A stretch of DNA of 64,000 nucleotides, taken from positions 5,084,001-5,148,000 of the forward strand of contig OY754468.1 in NCBI GenBank assembly GCA_963575645.1, given 5' to 3'. The translations under genes and the position numbers were made by a program. Positions 10,517-63,340 of this stretch are shown here, one piece after another. This DNA is from Xanthostigma xanthostigma. Its lineage: Eukaryota > Arthropoda > Insecta > Raphidioptera > Raphidiidae. Numbering within the stretch: position 1 is the stretch's first letter; every line of letters begins with the position of its first letter. The notes beneath the pieces are model-generated. The model saw nothing but the letters and a program-made list of their open reading frames with translations, ran no database searches and had not been told where the DNA came from.

Positions 10517-10980
10517 TAAAGGCTTGTTGGCATAGACCTGTGACTAAAAAACCCCATAGAAAAAAATCCAGTGGGGTTAAATCACATGATCTAGGGGGCC
10601 AATTCTAATCACCGAAACGAGAGAGTACACGACCAGGACATGTCTCTTGAATTCAATAGTTTCACGGGATGTATGGCATGTGGCACCATTTTGTTGAAAC
10701 CACATGTCGTCCACATCAATATTTTCTATTTTAGGAAGAAAGAACTCTCTTATCATGTTGCGATATCGAACACCAGTAACAGTTACTGCTTGACCAGCTT
10801 CATTTTCAAAGAAGTGTGGTCCAATGATGCCTCCAGCCCAAAATCCGCACCAAACAGTGACACGTTGTGGATGCATCTTTTTTTCGATAACAACATGTGG
10901 GTTTTCTGAACCCCAAATCCGGCAATTTTGACAATTAACGAAGCCATCGAGGTGAAAATGAGCTTCATCGCTTAGAATAT
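10517..10980 (-). pseudogene. Mariner-type transposase fragment, copy 1 (inactive)
   Basis: Reads LSDEAHF, then VTVWCGFWAGG, then MWFQQNGATCHTS, the DDD transposase core of an insect mariner-like family. The second catalytic Asp, normally in QQDGATCHT, is Asn here. After ATCHT the frame shifts and meets a stop, and the RSCDLTPLDFFLWG third-Asp block continues in another frame near 10,560-10,590. The N-terminal DNA-binding part is absent. A relative lies at 50,233-50,895. Confidence 0.75.
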
Positions 10981-10984
10981 TTTA

Positions 10985-15048: not shown

Positions 15049-15525
15049 AACACTAGACAGTACGCACTACTGCAGAGGTGAGAACTGTCATCATGCCATG
15101 CTAAGGAGTCACGATGCATTGCACAGCACAATACACACTCAGCTCTGAGCTCATTTTAATATGATTGTGATCTTATATTATTCGCATTTCGGATAAAGTA
15201 TAATAAAAGCTTAACAATAATAATGTTTTGTTACAATATTATATCTTTGTCAACGACGTCAATGTGAATGGTTTAAGTCACTGTTAAGCTTAGTACTATT
15301 ACACTTACACAGTGTGTCATTCAACATTAAATGACTCAGTAAAGATAACTCCGTACGTGCAAAATTCACTAGTGCCTCTATGGCCTGTGCTGTGTGCGCT
15401 CTGTAAATGTGCGAATGCAACAGTACAAAAAAGTTCAGCACAGAGTAATGCCGCTCGGAATGAGTCATTCACAAAAAAGGAAATCGTTTTCATGAACGAC
15501 TCGCTCGGGAGCGACACATCACTAC
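15049..15525. mobile_element. hAT-like MITE, left-truncated copy of the 29.7 kb element
   Basis: Ends ..GAGCGACACATCACTA and matches the element at 29,728-30,305 over most of its length, in opposite orientation. It lacks the first roughly 75 bases. Short open frames inside are shared with the other copy and are by-products of the repeat, not genes. Confidence 0.65.
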
Positions 15526-16593: not shown

Positions 16594-16894
16594 GTTATTC
16601 GGCAATACGGGAGCGTGTTCGGCGTGCGGCCAAATGATTCCGCCGAACGAGTTCGTCATGCGCACAAGTGTCAGCCAACAGCTCGGCGCGCCGCCCCAGC
16701 ACCAGGTGTTTCATCTGAAATGTTTCACGTGCAGCAAATGCGGCGCGCATTTAGTGCCAGGCGATCGCTACTACATGCTCAACGGCTCGTTGGTCTGCGA
16801 ACAGGACTGGCACAAACTGCTCAAAGGCTCGGCAGCCGCCGGCGGCACGGTGCGCAAGGGCAAAGTCGGCAGGCCAAGACGCAGCAGGGACTGA
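16594..16894 (+). CDS. LIM-only transcription cofactor, LMO4-like: terminal exon with LIM domain 2
   Basis: LMO proteins carry two LIM zinc fingers, bind LDB/Chip-type cofactors and tune nuclear transcription complexes. This exon follows a TTCGCGCAG acceptor. It begins with one base of a split codon and then encodes 99 residues. The LFGNTGACSACG start and the LVPGDRYYMLNGSLVCEQDW segment match LIM2 of LMO4. Zinc ligands fit the family: C8, C11, H40, C43, C46, C49, C68 and D71 (numbered from the first whole codon). The C11-H40 gap is about ten residues longer than in vertebrate LMO4. The tail is basic, with an AT-hook-like VGRPRR, and ends at TGA 16,892-16,894. LIM1 must lie on upstream exons that I could not find in this window. 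The exon is GC-rich compared with its surroundings, as expected under coding constraint. The LMO4 class is well supported; one-to-one orthology is not proven. Confidence 0.92.
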
Positions 16895-17641
16895 AATGTT
16901 GCTCCGTCGCCATCGTCTGCTGCTCAACATTTGCCACTCGATTCAACAGCTGTTGCGCTCAATTCAAATACTGAAACAGGTACATTTTATTCAACTGCTC
17001 TCAGATCTAACGATGTGTTTAATTCAAACGTGACCCGCTCACCGGCCATTGATTCAACTGCAGTTTGTTCGAATACGAAAACAGAGACAATTTATTCAAC
17101 TGCTCCTGATAATGTGTTAGACATGATTCGCTCATCTGTTGATGATACAATTGAAGTTCTTTCGAATACGAAAAAAGAGACATTTTATTCAACTGCTGTT
17201 GATTCAATGGCACTTGATACGAATGTGAAAACGGGAACGTTATGTTCTGGTATATCTGACTCGGATGTAGTTGATTCAACTGCTGATATTTTTAATATTA
17301 AAGCAGATACTTGTTATTCGGATAGAAATAAATCAACTGCGATTGATTTGTTTACAAAATCGGATGTTTCTAAATCAATTGCGAATCACACAAATGAATC
17401 ATATGTGTTTAATTCACATTTAAAAGAGTCTAATACAAATGCGATTTTATCAACTGCAGTTGATTTATCTATTATCCCGACAGCGGAAAATAGTAGATTC
17501 TGTTCAACTGCTCCAAATTTACCTTTAATTGGAACAATTGACGGGGCTATTGATGATTCAACAACGAAATTTAATGCAATGCAATATTATGCGGCAGTTA
17601 AGTGTCATCTAATTGATGGACTTTATTGTACAGGTTTGTAA
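16895..17641 (+). CDS. In-frame 248-codon extension after the LMO4 TGA (possible readthrough or alternative C-terminus)
   Basis: Directly after the TGA the same frame stays open for 248 codons to TAA at 17,639-17,641. There is no ATG near the beginning, so it is not a typical independent gene. The predicted peptide is rich in Ser, Thr, Asn and Asp, with degenerate repeats of about 35 residues built on DSTAV, SNTKTET and FYSTA. Repeat units differ at synonymous third positions (for example TCA ACA GCT against TCA ACT GCA), which hints at coding constraint. A poly(A) signal AATAAA sits 15 bases downstream. Against coding: the stop is followed by A rather than the leakier C, an 86-codon frame is also open on the opposite strand inside the repeat, and a stop-poor repetitive 3' UTR would look similar. 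No domain recognised. Confidence 0.4.
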   Translation, partial: NVAPSPSSAAQHLPLDSTAVALNSNTETGTFYSTALRSNDVFNSNVTRSPAIDSTAVCSNTKTETIYSTAPDNVLDMIRSSVDDTIEVLSNTKKETFYSTAVDSMALDTNVKTGTLCSGISDSDVVDSTADIFNIKADTCYSDRNKSTAIDLFTKSDVSKSIANHTNESYVFNSHLKESNTNAILSTAVDLSIIPTAENSRFCSTAPNLPLIGTIDGAIDDSTTKFNAMQYYAAVKCHLIDGLYCTGL

Positions 17642-17655
17642 TTTTTAAAAAATAT

Positions 17656-17661
17656 AATAAA
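17656..17661 (+). terminator. Poly(A) signal AATAAA for the LMO4-like transcript
   Basis: The first canonical hexamer after the TGA on this strand. It lies about 760 bases beyond the TGA but only 15 beyond the stop of the extended frame. Confidence 0.5.
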
Positions 17662-17699: not shown

Positions 17700-18430
17700 T
17701 CAGAAAACGGAAAGTTATTTTTCTATAAGAATATCAATCGCAGACTACTTGAAATAATAGGTTTGTAGTCAAGAAAATTTGTTCAGACATTTTGATACTG
17801 GTATTCAATTTAAAAAGATTTTGAGACATTGACGTATTGTATTCTAATAGATATATGACAAATTCAAAATCTAATATTTTAAAGTGGAAATAAAGTGATT
17901 TCTTTTTGTTCGGCTCTAACAAGAAACGAGCTTGGAACTATTTTTTGTCAGGAACATTCCGCGATTGTCTTTTTAGTTCAGTAGAAAGAGCATAAGATAG
18001 GAAGTGTAATCGAAATAAGTGGGAAAGTAGGGACATTTTGGGATTTTGTAGAGTTCGATGCCCTGAATGACATAAGAAAAACAATGCAAATTGTCATCGC
18101 AACCGCCAGAGCCGCCGTATTGGCAAAACGGCGCAAAAAAACAGTTTCTTTGAAATATCTCGCTTCGGGTGCCTCATACGCAAAACAAATATTTATATGA
18201 AAATAAAACAGACAATTTTTTCTACAAAATAATGTCCTACACATTTTTTTTCTAAACACTAAGTCAAGTATTTTTGACAAAATTTTGATGTTCTGGCAAT
18301 TTGCCAATAATTATTCAATGTTGACTAAATTTTGTATGTTTATTTGAGATGTATTGACCTAACAACATTTTTAGCCTAATAATTACTTGGTATATCGTAG
18401 GACGTAGGTACCTATATCTACCATAAAAAT
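17700..18430. other. Unassigned sequence downstream of the LMO4-like gene
   Basis: Minus-strand open frames at 17,734-17,922 and 17,978-18,307 show no domain. No element ends seen. Confidence 0.4.
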
Positions 18431-29727: not shown

Positions 29728-30305
29728 GATGTGTCGCTCCTGAGCGAGTCGTTCATAATGAACGACTCCTTTCTCCGAGCGCCATTGCTCTGTGCTGAGG
29801 TATACTGTACTGTTGCATTCGCACATTTACAGAGCGCACACAGCACAGGCCATAGAGGCACTAGTGAATTTTGCACGTACGGAGTTATCTTTGCTGAGTC
29901 ATTTAATGTTGAATGACACGCTGTAAGTGCAATAGTACTAAGCTTATAGTGACCTAAACCATTCACATTGACGTCGTTAACAAAGATATAATGCCTATTG
30001 TAACAAAAAACATTATTGTTGTTAAGCTTTTATTATACTGTATAGTTTATCCGAAATGTGAATAATAATATAAGAACACAATCATATTAAAATGAGCTCA
30101 GAGCAGTGTGTGTAGTGTGCAATGCTACATGACTCCTGAGCATGTATAATGACAGTTAACAGTTCACACCTCTGCAGTCTGCACTCTTGTGTAGTGCGTA
30201 CTCTCTAGTGTCGCTCCTTTGAACGACTCGCTCTGAGCGACTCTTTTTAGTGAGCGGAGCGCACGGAGCCAACTCCCAATAAAGGGTCATGCGGACACAT
30301 CACTA
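29728..30305. mobile_element. hAT-like MITE, full copy
   Basis: Ends TAGTGATGTGTCGCTCC and ..GCGGACACATCACTA are inverted repeats, with several GAGCGA / TCGTTC motifs inside each end. It is a fuller relative of 15,049-15,525. The flanking 8-mers do not match well, so the duplication has decayed. Open frames inside are not genes. Confidence 0.7.
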
Positions 30306-50232: not shown

Positions 50233-50895
50233 TTTATTCGTTTGAAAGGCTTATCGATGCCATTATGTGTGGAATATAACATCTTTCAAATGTTCGCTGC
50301 ACATCCGAAATGTCCAATTTTCCATGACTGGCGCATAAATCGGGCTTAATTTGACCGATGGCATGGGTTAGCTGGCTTTTAAGGCCGCTGTGGTTTGTGA
50401 CTTATTCCGCTTAGACCTGCGACTTAAGAAATCCCCACAAAAAAAAGTCTAAGGGGGTCAAATCGCACGATCTCGATGGCCAGTTCAGTGAGATGACAAT
50501 GCCCTCACATCGCTCGTGCAGAATGTCCAATGTGGCATGAGCTGTGTGGCACGTAGCGCCGTCCTGTTGAAACCACATGTCGTTGGTGATCATATCATCC
50601 AATTCAGGCCAAAAGAAGTTGGTAATCCTCGACCTATAGCTCTCGCCGTTGACTGTGATGGTCTGGCCAACGTCGTTCTCAAAGAAATATCGACCGATGA
50701 CGCCGCCAGCCCAAAATCCATACCAAACAGTGACTTTTTCGGATTGTATTGGACGTTCTTGGATCTCATGTGGATTAGTATCGTCCCAAATTGGACAATT
50801 TTGTTTGTTCACGTACCCATTCATCCAGAAATGGGCCTCCTCGCTGAAGATGATTTTTCGATAAACATTGCCCGAACAGAACACCCATTTTGATA
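50233..50895 (-). pseudogene. Mariner-type transposase fragment, copy 2 (inactive)
   Basis: On the minus strand it reads FSEEAHFWMNGYVNKQNC, VTVWYGFWAGG, MWFQQDGATCHTA and SCDLTPLDFFLWGFLK, then two in-frame stops, then the C-terminal tail to a TAA at 50,233. The first catalytic Asp (FSDEAHF in relatives) is Glu here; the second and third Asp are kept. The spacing between them is shortened by about five residues compared with the family. A palindromic MITE cuts the gene upstream at about 50,895, and the N-terminal helix-turn-helix part is not seen beyond it. Confidence 0.8.
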
Positions 50896-50896
50896 A

Positions 50897-51050
50897 AACA
50901 ATTTTATAAATAAAATTATCGACCAATTTTTCAGACAATATATTAACAAACAATATAAAATTAATACATTATTGTTTGTTAATATATTGTGTGAAAAATT
51001 GGTCGATAATTTTATTTATTGAAGAGTTCTAATCAGACGTTAATCAAAGA
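50897..51050. mobile_element. Palindromic MITE inserted in the mariner copy, 13-bp direct repeats
   Basis: AAAACAATTTTAT occurs at both borders (about 50,893 and 51,055). Arms AAATAAAATTATCGACCAAT and its mirror pair almost completely. The right arm is longer, ending ..CTTTGATTAACGTCTGA when read reversed. Same family as 28,266-28,352 and 58,800-59,115. Confidence 0.75.
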
Positions 51051-58119: not shown

Positions 58120-59545
58120 TCAAAATGTTTTTTTTAGAACCGCATCCAAATTTTCATTGCTATGTCCGCCCTTTGAAATTGATTGAATTACGTCTTTCAT
58201 GTTGGAAATTTGTACATCCCTCCTCTTTAGTTTCTGTTTTAGTGTTTTAATTCTTCTTCGTAATAGTATATCTTTGTTGGTATATGAAACTGTTTGGGTT
58301 TCACGATCAACCAACATTCCAACTTGGGTGCTTGATGTAGAAGGTAGATTGATGTCCATAAGAGGTATAATATGCTGAACATCCTCATTATGAACATCCA
58401 CAGAGACATCCTAAAAAAACAATAACATTTATTCATCAAATAATAATAATATAATTAGGATAATAATAATAGGACAGGTGCCAATATCGTTTTTTTTTTA
58501 ATTTATATCCATAGGTACCTACCAGTTTTTTAATTTTCCTGCGAGGTTCAGCAGTTTTTGGTAACAAATGCTTAGGAAATGAAAATACACTGGGTACAGC
58601 ATCTAGTTTTAGTAATTTAGCGGTGCACCCTGGTTTGACTATGTAATCTGTTGGAAGGAAATGTTCTCCACAAAGTTTGCTGGTTTTAGATGGAGCCCAA
58701 TTATCCCTGCGAACTGCCTTTATCCATAACTTTAGGATTTCTGGTCGTTTAAATGGAAAACTGCAACAAACAAATTTTCTTTTAATATTAACAATTATTC
58801 AAAATCTTTGATTAACGTCTGAATAGAACTCTTCAAATAAATAAAATTGTCGACCAATTTTTCTCAGACAAATATATTGACAAAAAATAAAAAAATAACA
58901 AATCGGCTTTGGATCTTCTTCAGAAAAATCTAAAAAATATAAATTATTAGTATTAGTTATTTAATATGTATTATGTAATAGAGTGCACGACTAATACTAA
59001 TAATTTATATTTTTTAGATTTTTCTGAAGAAGATCCAAAGCCGATTTGTTATTTTTTTATTTTTTGTCAATATATTGGTCTGAGAAAAATTGGTCGACAA
59101 TTTTATTTATTTGATTAACAATTATTGTTAATTATTTAATATTTCATATTTTATTACCCTCTTTATGAAATTAAATGGTCTATAAAATACGTTATTATAA
59201 ATAAATAAAATAGAATTAAGACCATGTGTCAAAAAGTAAACTGTAAATAGCTAGTCCAATTTTGCCTGCATTATGATAAGTTTAATTATGAAAAAGTCAT
59301 AAAATATTCATGATACAAACTATAGTGCAGTTTCTGAAATAACTTTATAATTAGGCTAAAGGTTGTATCTAGCTATTAAAAAATTATTGCACTAGTATTC
59401 AGTATGTCAAAATTTAATTAAGTACTAGCTATATTTTTACACAAAATATATTTTTTAATTTAATATTTTTAACTTACCCATGAAAAGATATTTTCCGTTT
59501 ATCTTGCTCATTCTGGCATCCAAACGCTACACAAGAAATCACCAT
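58120..59545 (-). CDS. THAP-domain zinc-finger protein, complete three-exon gene
   Basis: THAP domains are C2CH zinc fingers that bind DNA, in host regulators and in P-element-type transposases. Exons are 59,478-59,545, 58,523-58,760 and 58,120-58,410. Donors (GTAAGT, GTAGGT) and acceptors (..TTGCAG, ..TTTTAG) are canonical and phases join cleanly, giving 198 residues. The product starts MVISCVAFGCQNEQDK. C5, C10, C53 and H56 are the zinc ligands, W35 and the AVPSVF block (77-82) are family hallmarks, and P25 follows the ISFHGF turn. The part after the domain is basic and then acidic. Residues around 145-175 (RRRIKTLKQKLKRR) look like a short coiled coil, as in many THAP proteins. No transposase catalytic region follows, so a small host protein is likelier than a transposon ORF, but a truncated element is possible. 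A MITE sits in intron 1. The ATG chosen is the only one that starts the zinc finger at its usual place. Confidence 0.85.
58800..59115. mobile_element. Palindromic MITE in THAP intron 1
   Basis: Long arms (AAAATCTTTGATTAACGTCT start; GGATCTTCTTCAGAAAAATC inner block) pair around 58,950-58,990. TTAACAATTATT lies directly on both sides. Same family as the mariner-embedded copy at 50.9 kb. Confidence 0.75.
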
Positions 59546-61236: not shown

Positions 61237-63340
61237 TCAGAATGTTTCTGTGTCCGCTTCTTTTTTTTCATCCTTCGAAGCATTGTCTTGGGTTAGTACA
61301 TCATCGGATTTTGTAACTTCTTCATTGTTCGTAGTACTTTCTTCCTCTGGAGACTCTGTTACTTGATAAGTACCTTCAGATTCTATGAACTTGATAAGTG
61401 CTTCAAACGTGCGCGCGCCACTGTAGTGGATGGGATCTTTATTGCCTTTCACGTAAAATTTCAATGTTGGTAAATAATGTATTTCAACCTGCTTCAACTC
61501 ATTTAGATCACTATTTACTTTGGCTATGACGACATCATCACGCGACCTTTAAAAAATAAGAACAGTTACGATTTTCTTGTACTTAATTTTAAGAATTCTT
61601 TATATGAAAATAGCCGCTAGCCGCAACAATGTTTTATAGTCCATTCGCAGGGCCGTACCGACCACGGGGCAAGTGGGGCGATACCCCGAGGCCTCCAACA
61701 AAAAGGGGCTACTTTTCAGGGGTTTAAAGGTGTCCACATTCGTTCTTTACTTTTTTGGGCCCTTCCACAAATTACCTTTAGAATTGTATGTAAAAAACAG
61801 AGTGTTTTTTCCGAGGAAAAATTTGTTTTTGCTCCCTTTCTCCTGTTTCGAGAGAGAGGAAGAAAGAACAAATCGCTATTGTCGAATAAAATCTCGTGAG
61901 GCGGTAGATGTCTCCACCACGTTAGACACTCTTCTCTCATCTCTGTCTAATAGACAGAGAAGAGAAGGCGCTCGCTTCAATATCAAGCTTGGGTGCCACA
62001 CGCACCAGTTTTATCTATGTTTATTCAATAGATACAAAATGTCGGTTCGGAATTCCTTTTTTTTTTAATTCCAAACTCGCGATAGGCTGGTATACCTAAT
62101 ACGCCTGTTCTCACTAGGAACTAGCCTACCAAACCCGTATATTTTTCCGATTTTTCGTGTAGACTTATTCATGGTTCGCTGAAAAATGTATCTACCTTAA
62201 CGATCTATCATTTGAATATGTTTAACAGTTTCATCACGACGACGAAAGCAATGTAAGACACGAATGACAATCATAATTTTGAACATAATAATAAGTAATG
62301 GCCTTTTTTAAGCACTTTTTAAATTCTACGTAGGGGGCCCCAATTTAACTTCTTGCTCCGGGGCCTCCGAGGTTCCAATTACCATTCCACAGCAATAGCA
62401 GTAGTGGAGCTTTCAGCTCCACCATTTTGGTTCGACTTGCTTTACGGGGCTGTACCCCGTTCCGTAGCAACGTACTAAAACGGTGCTTGTTTGAAGGCAG
62501 GAGACCTTCTAATGAAGAGAATTTCGACTTTTGTAAGTTAATGTTCCATTACAAAACTGCGTCTGTTTGGAGACAGTGACTGAACAAGAAAACGGAGGTT
62601 AATGTTGCATTACAAAACCGTGGTTTTTGGAGGAAGTATTGCTTTCTATTGAATAAGGAAACGGAAATAAACGTCTTGAACAGTTCTGGATCCTTGTGAG
62701 AAGACACTCAGTCCATTCGTGATTTGGTACCCAAATATCTGAGTAGCAAGGGGTCGAACATGACGCTCTTCCGCAGCACCTCATTCCATGTTCTTGTCAG
62801 AATATGTTTCCAAACAGTCCTGAGAATTTAGCCCTTTCAAGGGCACAGCCCACTGTTTAGAAACAAATGTTCCTAGAATGTGGCCACCATTATCACCCTG
62901 AGGGAACAAGTGATTGTAAATGATTGCATTTATATGATAAATATTTACTTAAGTTTTTCAGCAACTTCCTCGAGAATTGGTGCCAGTTCTTTGCAAGGTC
63001 CGCACCAAGGTGCATAAAAATCTACAAGTACGTATTTCGATTCATCGAGGGTAACTGAATCATAGTTGGAGCTGACCAAAACTTTGACCGGCTTCTTGTC
63101 CCAGTCTGCTGGCAAATCTTGACTTAGCAAGTAAATTTCGAGTTGTTTATTGACAAATGCCTGCACAAAGGTTCTAATATTGTTCTCGTTGATTTCTTTA
63201 GCTTCAAGTTTATATTTTTCTTCACCATTTTTCCCGTAAGTCTGAATACGTATCGCGGGCACATCTTGCTTTTTTACACCCATGCTTTCGAGTAAATGTT
63301 GGTGGTCTTCAGAGTCGACATTAATTGCGACGAATCGAAT
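61237..63340 (-). CDS. Protein disulfide isomerase, last two exons (b' end, a' domain, C-terminus)
   Basis: Protein disulfide isomerases form and reshuffle disulfides in secretory proteins in the ER. Exon 62,949-63,340 (phase-0 start after TGATAG) joins exon 61,237-61,546 through a GTAAAT donor and an AAAG acceptor, with a split Lys codon. The visible 232 residues cover the end of b' ([27 protein letters not shown]) and the a' thioredoxin fold: [27 protein letters not shown] and the cis-Pro loop YLPTLKFY, then an acidic tail. Two departures from P4HB-type enzymes: the active site is CGPC rather than CGHC, and the protein ends KKEADTETF with no KDEL or HDEL. Reading either other frame through the A8 run near the end does not give a KDEL. 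CGPC lowers oxidase and isomerase tendency in known thioredoxins. It is likely a divergent paralogue. Upstream exons (a, b) lie beyond 63,340, probably outside the window. Confidence 0.93.
61640..62390. repeat. Repeat-rich part of the disulfide isomerase intron
   Basis: CAGGGCCGTACCGACCACGG and a CTCCGGGGCCTCCGAGG phrase mark what looks like a decayed hAT-like element with GGGGC-rich ends. The 131-codon frame inside is not recognisable. Confidence 0.4.
62395..62945. repeat. Remaining intron sequence with short duplications
   Basis: Two loosely repeated phrases (AATGTTCCATTACAAAACTG near 62,541 and AATGTTGCATTACAAAACCG near 62,602) and hairpin-forming GGAGCTTTCAGCTCC. Origin unknown. Confidence 0.35.

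Follow-up and report, generated by a model that had tools for sequence, protein, structure and literature searches.

Catalogues of stop codon readthrough in insects cover mainly flies and mosquitoes and were compiled from comparative scores. The closest precedent for the locus described here is Drosophila Drifter/Vvl, whose 286-residue readthrough tail is reported to be disordered and to alter transcriptional output (PMC8417969), and readthrough extensions in flies are described as generally disordered (PMC4999894). UGA is listed as the most readthrough-prone stop codon (PMC13170385), and candidates from flies and mosquitoes are enriched in TGA-C contexts, RNA structures and CAGCAGCA, the first two of which are not required (PMC5100048). 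Here, we describe a snakefly gene encoding an LMO4-like protein in which a long open frame follows the TGA, and we assess how this frame might be reached by ribosomes.

The window is a stretch of 64,000 nucleotides (C5:5084001-5148000), part of a 53-Mb contig in a genome of 623.3 Mb and 28 contigs; the Xanthostigma xanthostigma (Raphidioptera) assembly is reported as 623.30 Mb in 28 scaffolds, the longest of 84.21 Mb, with a consensus QV of 66.1 (PMC11871431). Control stretches consisted of 20 fetched 10-kb pieces of the same genome, 5 just upstream and 15 elsewhere. Several other features were seen in the window. On the minus strand, an open frame at 58436-58798 carries a THAP domain (Pfam E 3.2e-10), and an exon at 62945-63340 carries a thioredoxin domain (E 1.9e-16) and appears protein-disulphide-isomerase-like by eye. 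Two further minus-strand open frames, at 10577-10981 and 50411-50968, are 53% identical over 109 residues and transposase-fragment-like by eye, with no Pfam match at E 0.001. A dispersed repeat links 15083-15459 with 29774-30157 in opposite orientation (87.5% identity over 393 aligned columns).

The last known coding exon of the gene encodes a LIM2 domain, and among solved structures it matches LMO4 best (E 8.5e-24), ahead of LMO2 (1.8e-14). A LIM1 exon lies ~57 kb upstream of it (C5:5042903-5043073), and the junction between the two is in phase: the LIM1 exon ends in ATGAG|GTAAGG, the LIM2 exon begins after CAG at 16594, and the G at this position completes the R-LFGN junction. Because LMO4 is the best structure match and a phase-compatible LIM1 exon lies upstream, the LMO4-like identity given in the first-pass annotation is well supported at the level of sequence, the predicted product having the two LIM domains of the LIM-only family and a LIM2 nearest to that of LMO4. 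The protein segment from the LIM2 exon has a basic pI of 9.6. Searches with LIM2 against viral and bacterial/archaeal collections gave no relatives, and the 8-residue C-terminus was not mentioned in the open-licence literature searched. An inverted repeat suspected by eye upstream of the exon was not borne out at a length of at least 16 bases. The TGA lies shortly after LIM2, which we take to be the expected end of insect LMO4 proteins.

Table 1 Features of the LMO4-like locus, in window coordinates.
Feature	Position	Strand	Basis or detail
Last known coding exon, LIM2 domain and basic C-terminus (...GRPRRSRD)	16594..16891	+	Pfam LIM E 2e-13
First stop, TGA with next base A; proposed readthrough site	16892..16894	+	sequence
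Tail ORF: 248 sense codons (16895-17638) and TAA (17639-17641)	16895..17641	+	acidic, S/T/A/D/N-rich
15 tail codons ahead of the first repeat copy, without AG	16895..16939	+	+5.0 bits in frame; -23.4 and -11.5 out of frame
Ten copies of core TCAACTGC (at most 1 mismatch), in one phase	16943..17511	+	starts 16943, 16991, 17054, 17096, 17189, 17276, 17333, 17375, 17450, 17504
Acceptor AG of the strongest splicing alternative, exon start 17005	17003..17004	+	in frame with LIM1 exon
AATAAA, candidate poly(A) signal, 14 bases past the TAA	17656..17661	+	sequence

The first-pass annotation had reported a TGA followed by 248 in-frame sense codons, a TAA and a nearby AATAAA, all of which are present in the sequence; further AATAAA motifs occur at 17327, within the tail, and at 17889. 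Over the tail region, the tail frame contains no stop, the other forward frames contain 8 and 32, and the reverse frames contain 26, 9 and 15. Antisense coding of the region was rejected on these reverse-frame counts. The remark that a chance frame rarely stays open for so long was borne out within the window, where none of the other stop-to-stop runs in six frames (8173 in all) matches the tail in length (runner-up, 185 codons). Markov simulations of orders 1-4, trained on the tail or the window, kept no frame open in 3000 attempts per model, and the probability of 248 open codons at the window stop rate is 7.8e-8. Among the control stretches, 7 of 25,455 runs reached at least 248 codons, the two longest being transposon-protein-like by eye; since such runs occur elsewhere in the genome, the length of the tail alone is inconclusive. 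Second ORFs at nine sugar-transporter loci spanned 1 to 90 codons.

The main weight of the coding argument is borne by the phase of the repeats. The degenerate repeat noted earlier in the tail is real, and its ten core copies are separated by irregular distances of 48, 63, 42, 93, 87, 57, 42, 75 and 54 bases, all multiples of 3, so that 10 of 10 cores share one phase (~5e-5 by chance, for a core picked after the repeats were seen). One extra match to the core lies outside the tail, at 16779 in the LIM2 exon. Shared 8-mers within the tail were matched at distances of 3n in 45 of 45 cases and 7-mers in 65 of 72, and the most biased of 116 window segments with at least 10 matches each reached 0.75.

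These spacings bear on an explanation in which the array grew in the LMO4 3′UTR from a stop-free unit, decayed and remained open by chance, untranslated throughout. A chance repeat-borne frame of comparable length does exist in this genome: the plus strand of one control stretch (L020, C1:10000001-10010000) has a 238-codon open low-complexity repeat frame whose 8-mer spacings divide by phase as 37/28/35, which illustrates that repeats alone can give long open frames without phase coherence. On the minus strand of another (L030, C5:20000001-20010000), a 211-codon open tandem-repeat frame, possibly a repeat protein or a chance array, had 68 of 83 matches at 3n spacing, and a regular unit of 3n bases can therefore partly imitate the phase lock of the tail. 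Against an untranslated array stand the nine irregular spacings described above. The composition by codon position also persists where the repeats are less marked, with the last 100 codons giving a chi-square P of 3.5e-9 and 416 control windows a minimum of 6.3e-6.

Scoring of codon-position composition placed the start of this signal at the stop codon itself. When each half of the tail was scored with a model built on the other, the halves reached 52.3 and 48.9 bits, whereas 9822 control segments peaked at 0.6 and 7.2; the halves share repeats, and the two cross-scores are therefore not fully independent. A model trained only on 17006-17638 scored positive immediately past the TGA and dropped around the TAA, and the stretch 16895-17005 scored +17.5 bits under it, a value matched by 0 of 50,118 control windows. 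Among control windows read in a fixed frame, 249 of 50,410 reached the score of the 15 codons ahead of the first repeat copy, as did 27 of 6816 when GC was matched, and because these codons are rich in trinucleotide-like runs, the signal there is weaker than the figure suggests. In this single genome, a frame-0 coding signature of the kind that marks readthrough genes thus lies between the first and second stops. A generic codon-usage score failed to separate the tail from background: 302 of 3720 control segments reached its value, and an antisense frame containing 9 stops surpassed it. Under a gene-trained codon-position model, the tail frame was the best of the forward frames (10.6 bits, reached by 7 of 3720 controls), and that same antisense frame scored 43.2. 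Both of these scores were given little weight because the training codons came mostly from membrane transporters, which differ in composition.

The first-pass annotation had further held that the repeat copies differ at synonymous third positions, and this did not stand. Mismatches numbered 34 of 106, 30 of 104 and 29 of 106 at codon positions 1, 2 and 3, giving rates of 0.32, 0.29 and 0.27 when pooled over six repeat pairs; the third-position excess named beforehand concerned relatives, and the comparison here, between internal copies, is flat by codon position, as an untranslated array would have it. Amino-acid changes, set against random placement of the differences, were below expectation in two of the six pairs, near it in three and above it in one (P 0.074). 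The two constrained pairs (P 0.042 and 0.021, uncorrected over six pairs) share the first repeat copy. With a pooled difference between copies of 0.29, or ~0.15 per copy, an unselected tail would stay free of stops with P 0.014, rising to 0.06 at a divergence of 0.10 per copy; these values are not very small, leave some support for the untranslated array, and are therefore moderate evidence only. The frame of the tail appears to be protected more than its residues, which drift. This pattern fits a weakly constrained disordered tail, yet it leaves room for an untranslated repeat, an explanation that we consider improbable. On the strength of phase and composition, we infer that the tail is protein-coding, and we hold this to be probable.

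Readthrough of the TGA, giving LMO4 an acidic and probably disordered tail, is the explanation that we favor, with a confidence that stays somewhat below even. It fits best because the coding signature starts directly past the TGA, where no splice acceptor is available: no AG dinucleotide occurs in 16889-16947, and GT-AG splicing therefore cannot skip the stop and retain the earliest coding-like codons. In the proposed scheme, the ribosome would normally halt at the TGA, yielding the short form of LMO4; in a subset of mRNAs, the TGA would be decoded by a near-cognate tRNA, and translation would proceed through 248 codons to the TAA. The product would carry an acidic, probably disordered repeat tail, rich in S, T, A, D and N, on a small LDB1-binding LIM adaptor. 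By analogy with Drifter, such a tail may act as a transcription-modulating region, and we infer that it could change how LMO4 functions in transcription complexes.

Apart from the TGA itself, the sequence around the stop lacks features enriched among readthrough candidates. The next base is A instead of C, RNA folding past the stop is nothing unusual in 16880-17000 (fold z +0.66), and CAGCAGCA is absent from 250 bases before the TGA through the TAA, with one CAGCAG at 16882.

The same tail codons could instead be reached by alternative splicing, in which the LIM1 exon or an unrecognised upstream exon is joined to an acceptor inside the tail, bypassing both LIM2 and the TGA. The first acceptors past the TGA give exon starts at 16950, 16980 and 17005. 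The last is a plausible acceptor and the best rival: the bases leading up to it are rich in pyrimidines, and it continues the frame of the LIM1 exon, which needs one base. This route requires no decoding of a stop, and the TAA lies just ahead of the poly(A) signal, as in a terminal exon. The phase agreement with LIM1 is, however, expected by chance in 1 of 3 cases, and with no AG from the TGA to 16948, at least the first 18 whole codons of the tail (36 with the 17005 acceptor) would be intron or 3′UTR despite bearing the tail signature. Both repeat pairs with amino-acid constraint include the first copy, and an acceptor at 17005 would place most of that copy in an intron. Skipping of the TGA from within the LIM2 exon could use 13 in-frame GT-AG pairings to 16950, 16980 or 17005; one of them, with its donor at 16594, amounts to the LIM1-to-17005 route, and the in-frame GT donors inside the exon are weak by eye. 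We regard splicing as unlikely, while ranking it directly after readthrough. From the earlier proposal of a readthrough or spliced LMO4 C-terminus, the LMO4-like assignment and a frame-specific coding signature were upheld, and the third-position excess among copies was not.

A coding signature that begins exactly at the TGA would also be expected if a long-tailed LMO4 were normal in this lineage and the TGA were a recent nonsense change or present on one haplotype. Jungreis et al. explicitly exclude such cases from their candidates (PMC5100048), and the assembly is highly heterozygous, with k-mer completeness of 76.54% for the primary and 98.88% for the combined assembly (PMC11871431). At the consensus quality reported for that assembly, a base error at the TGA is unlikely (PMC11871431). 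Third-position GC, however, is 0.75 in the LIM2 exon and drops to 0.33 over the 15 codons that follow the TGA (0.21 over the whole tail), at a stop that already sits where we would expect LMO4 to end. A new or allelic nonsense codon is accordingly rated as distinctly improbable, below an untranslated array.

The low third-position GC of the tail relative to the LIM2 exon, together with the lack of a family match, would also suit a separate gene with its own transcript, or initiation downstream of the TGA at a non-AUG codon or at the first in-frame ATG, which is codon 77 (17123). The coding signature and the in-phase repeats both extend upstream of this ATG, the former through all 76 codons, and a six-frame search of the whole genome, in which only the best candidates were scored, revealed no second copy of the tail and no matching exon. 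An independent gene or start is the least probable of the five explanations, and we give it very little credence.

The tail itself has a pI of 4.5 and a net charge of about -13. It had no significant Pfam match (top score 13.3 bits, where the cut-off is 27) and none in NCBIfam, solved structures, phage records or IMG/VR; in its own genome, it matched only itself. AlphaFold2, run on the tail alone as a single sequence, gave a mean pLDDT of 28.5 with no residue above 50, which fits disorder in the predicted tail and, coming from a model run with no alignment, proves little. We know of no LMO4 tail of this kind.

Taken further, readthrough suggests an evolutionary reading that we put forward tentatively and with less confidence than readthrough itself: a repeat array in the 3′UTR of snakefly LMO4 may have turned into an acidic, disordered domain of 248 residues that is translated only when the TGA is decoded, with selection preserving the open frame and its phase as the amino acids drift. 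If true, a protein domain would have arisen anew downstream of a stop codon. Readthrough at this locus would also extend the phenomenon, as a long and repeat-born case with a 248-codon extension, to another insect order, and would offer a clean setting for studying how protein domains emerge past stop codons and whether an open frame precedes amino-acid constraint. The open-licence literature searched yielded no report of LMO4 readthrough in Drosophila or of readthrough in Raphidioptera.

Among known systems, LMO4 (LIM-only protein 4) shares with this gene its pair of LIM1 and LIM2 exons and its structural match; the solved LMO4 chains that were matched are LIM-domain fusion constructs, and they are therefore uninformative on any tail. 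The insect candidates of Jungreis et al. resemble the locus in their frame-0 signature from first to second stop, in the use of TGA, in genes with a long intron and in the weak amino-acid constraint of the extensions (PMC5100048). They differ in that alignments of several species and conservation of the stop define them, whereas the LMO4 tail comes from one genome, and in favoring C as the next base, where LMO4 has A and no CAGCAGCA (PMC5100048). Drifter (Dfr-L) uses UAG, and its case is backed by a predicted hairpin, conservation across Diptera, antibodies and mutants (PMC8417969), whereas the snakefly locus has UGA-A, shows no RNA structure and is a candidate from the sequence of one genome. 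In addition, dfr is intronless (PMC8417969), unlike the LMO4-like gene with its widely separated LIM exons. The two nonetheless share the essential arrangement, a transcriptional regulator followed by a long in-frame ORF2 (286 codons in Drifter and 248 in LMO4) that would add a low-complexity disordered extension, poorly alignable between distant species in the case of Drifter (PMC8417969). If right, the LMO4 case is a further example of already known insect readthrough.
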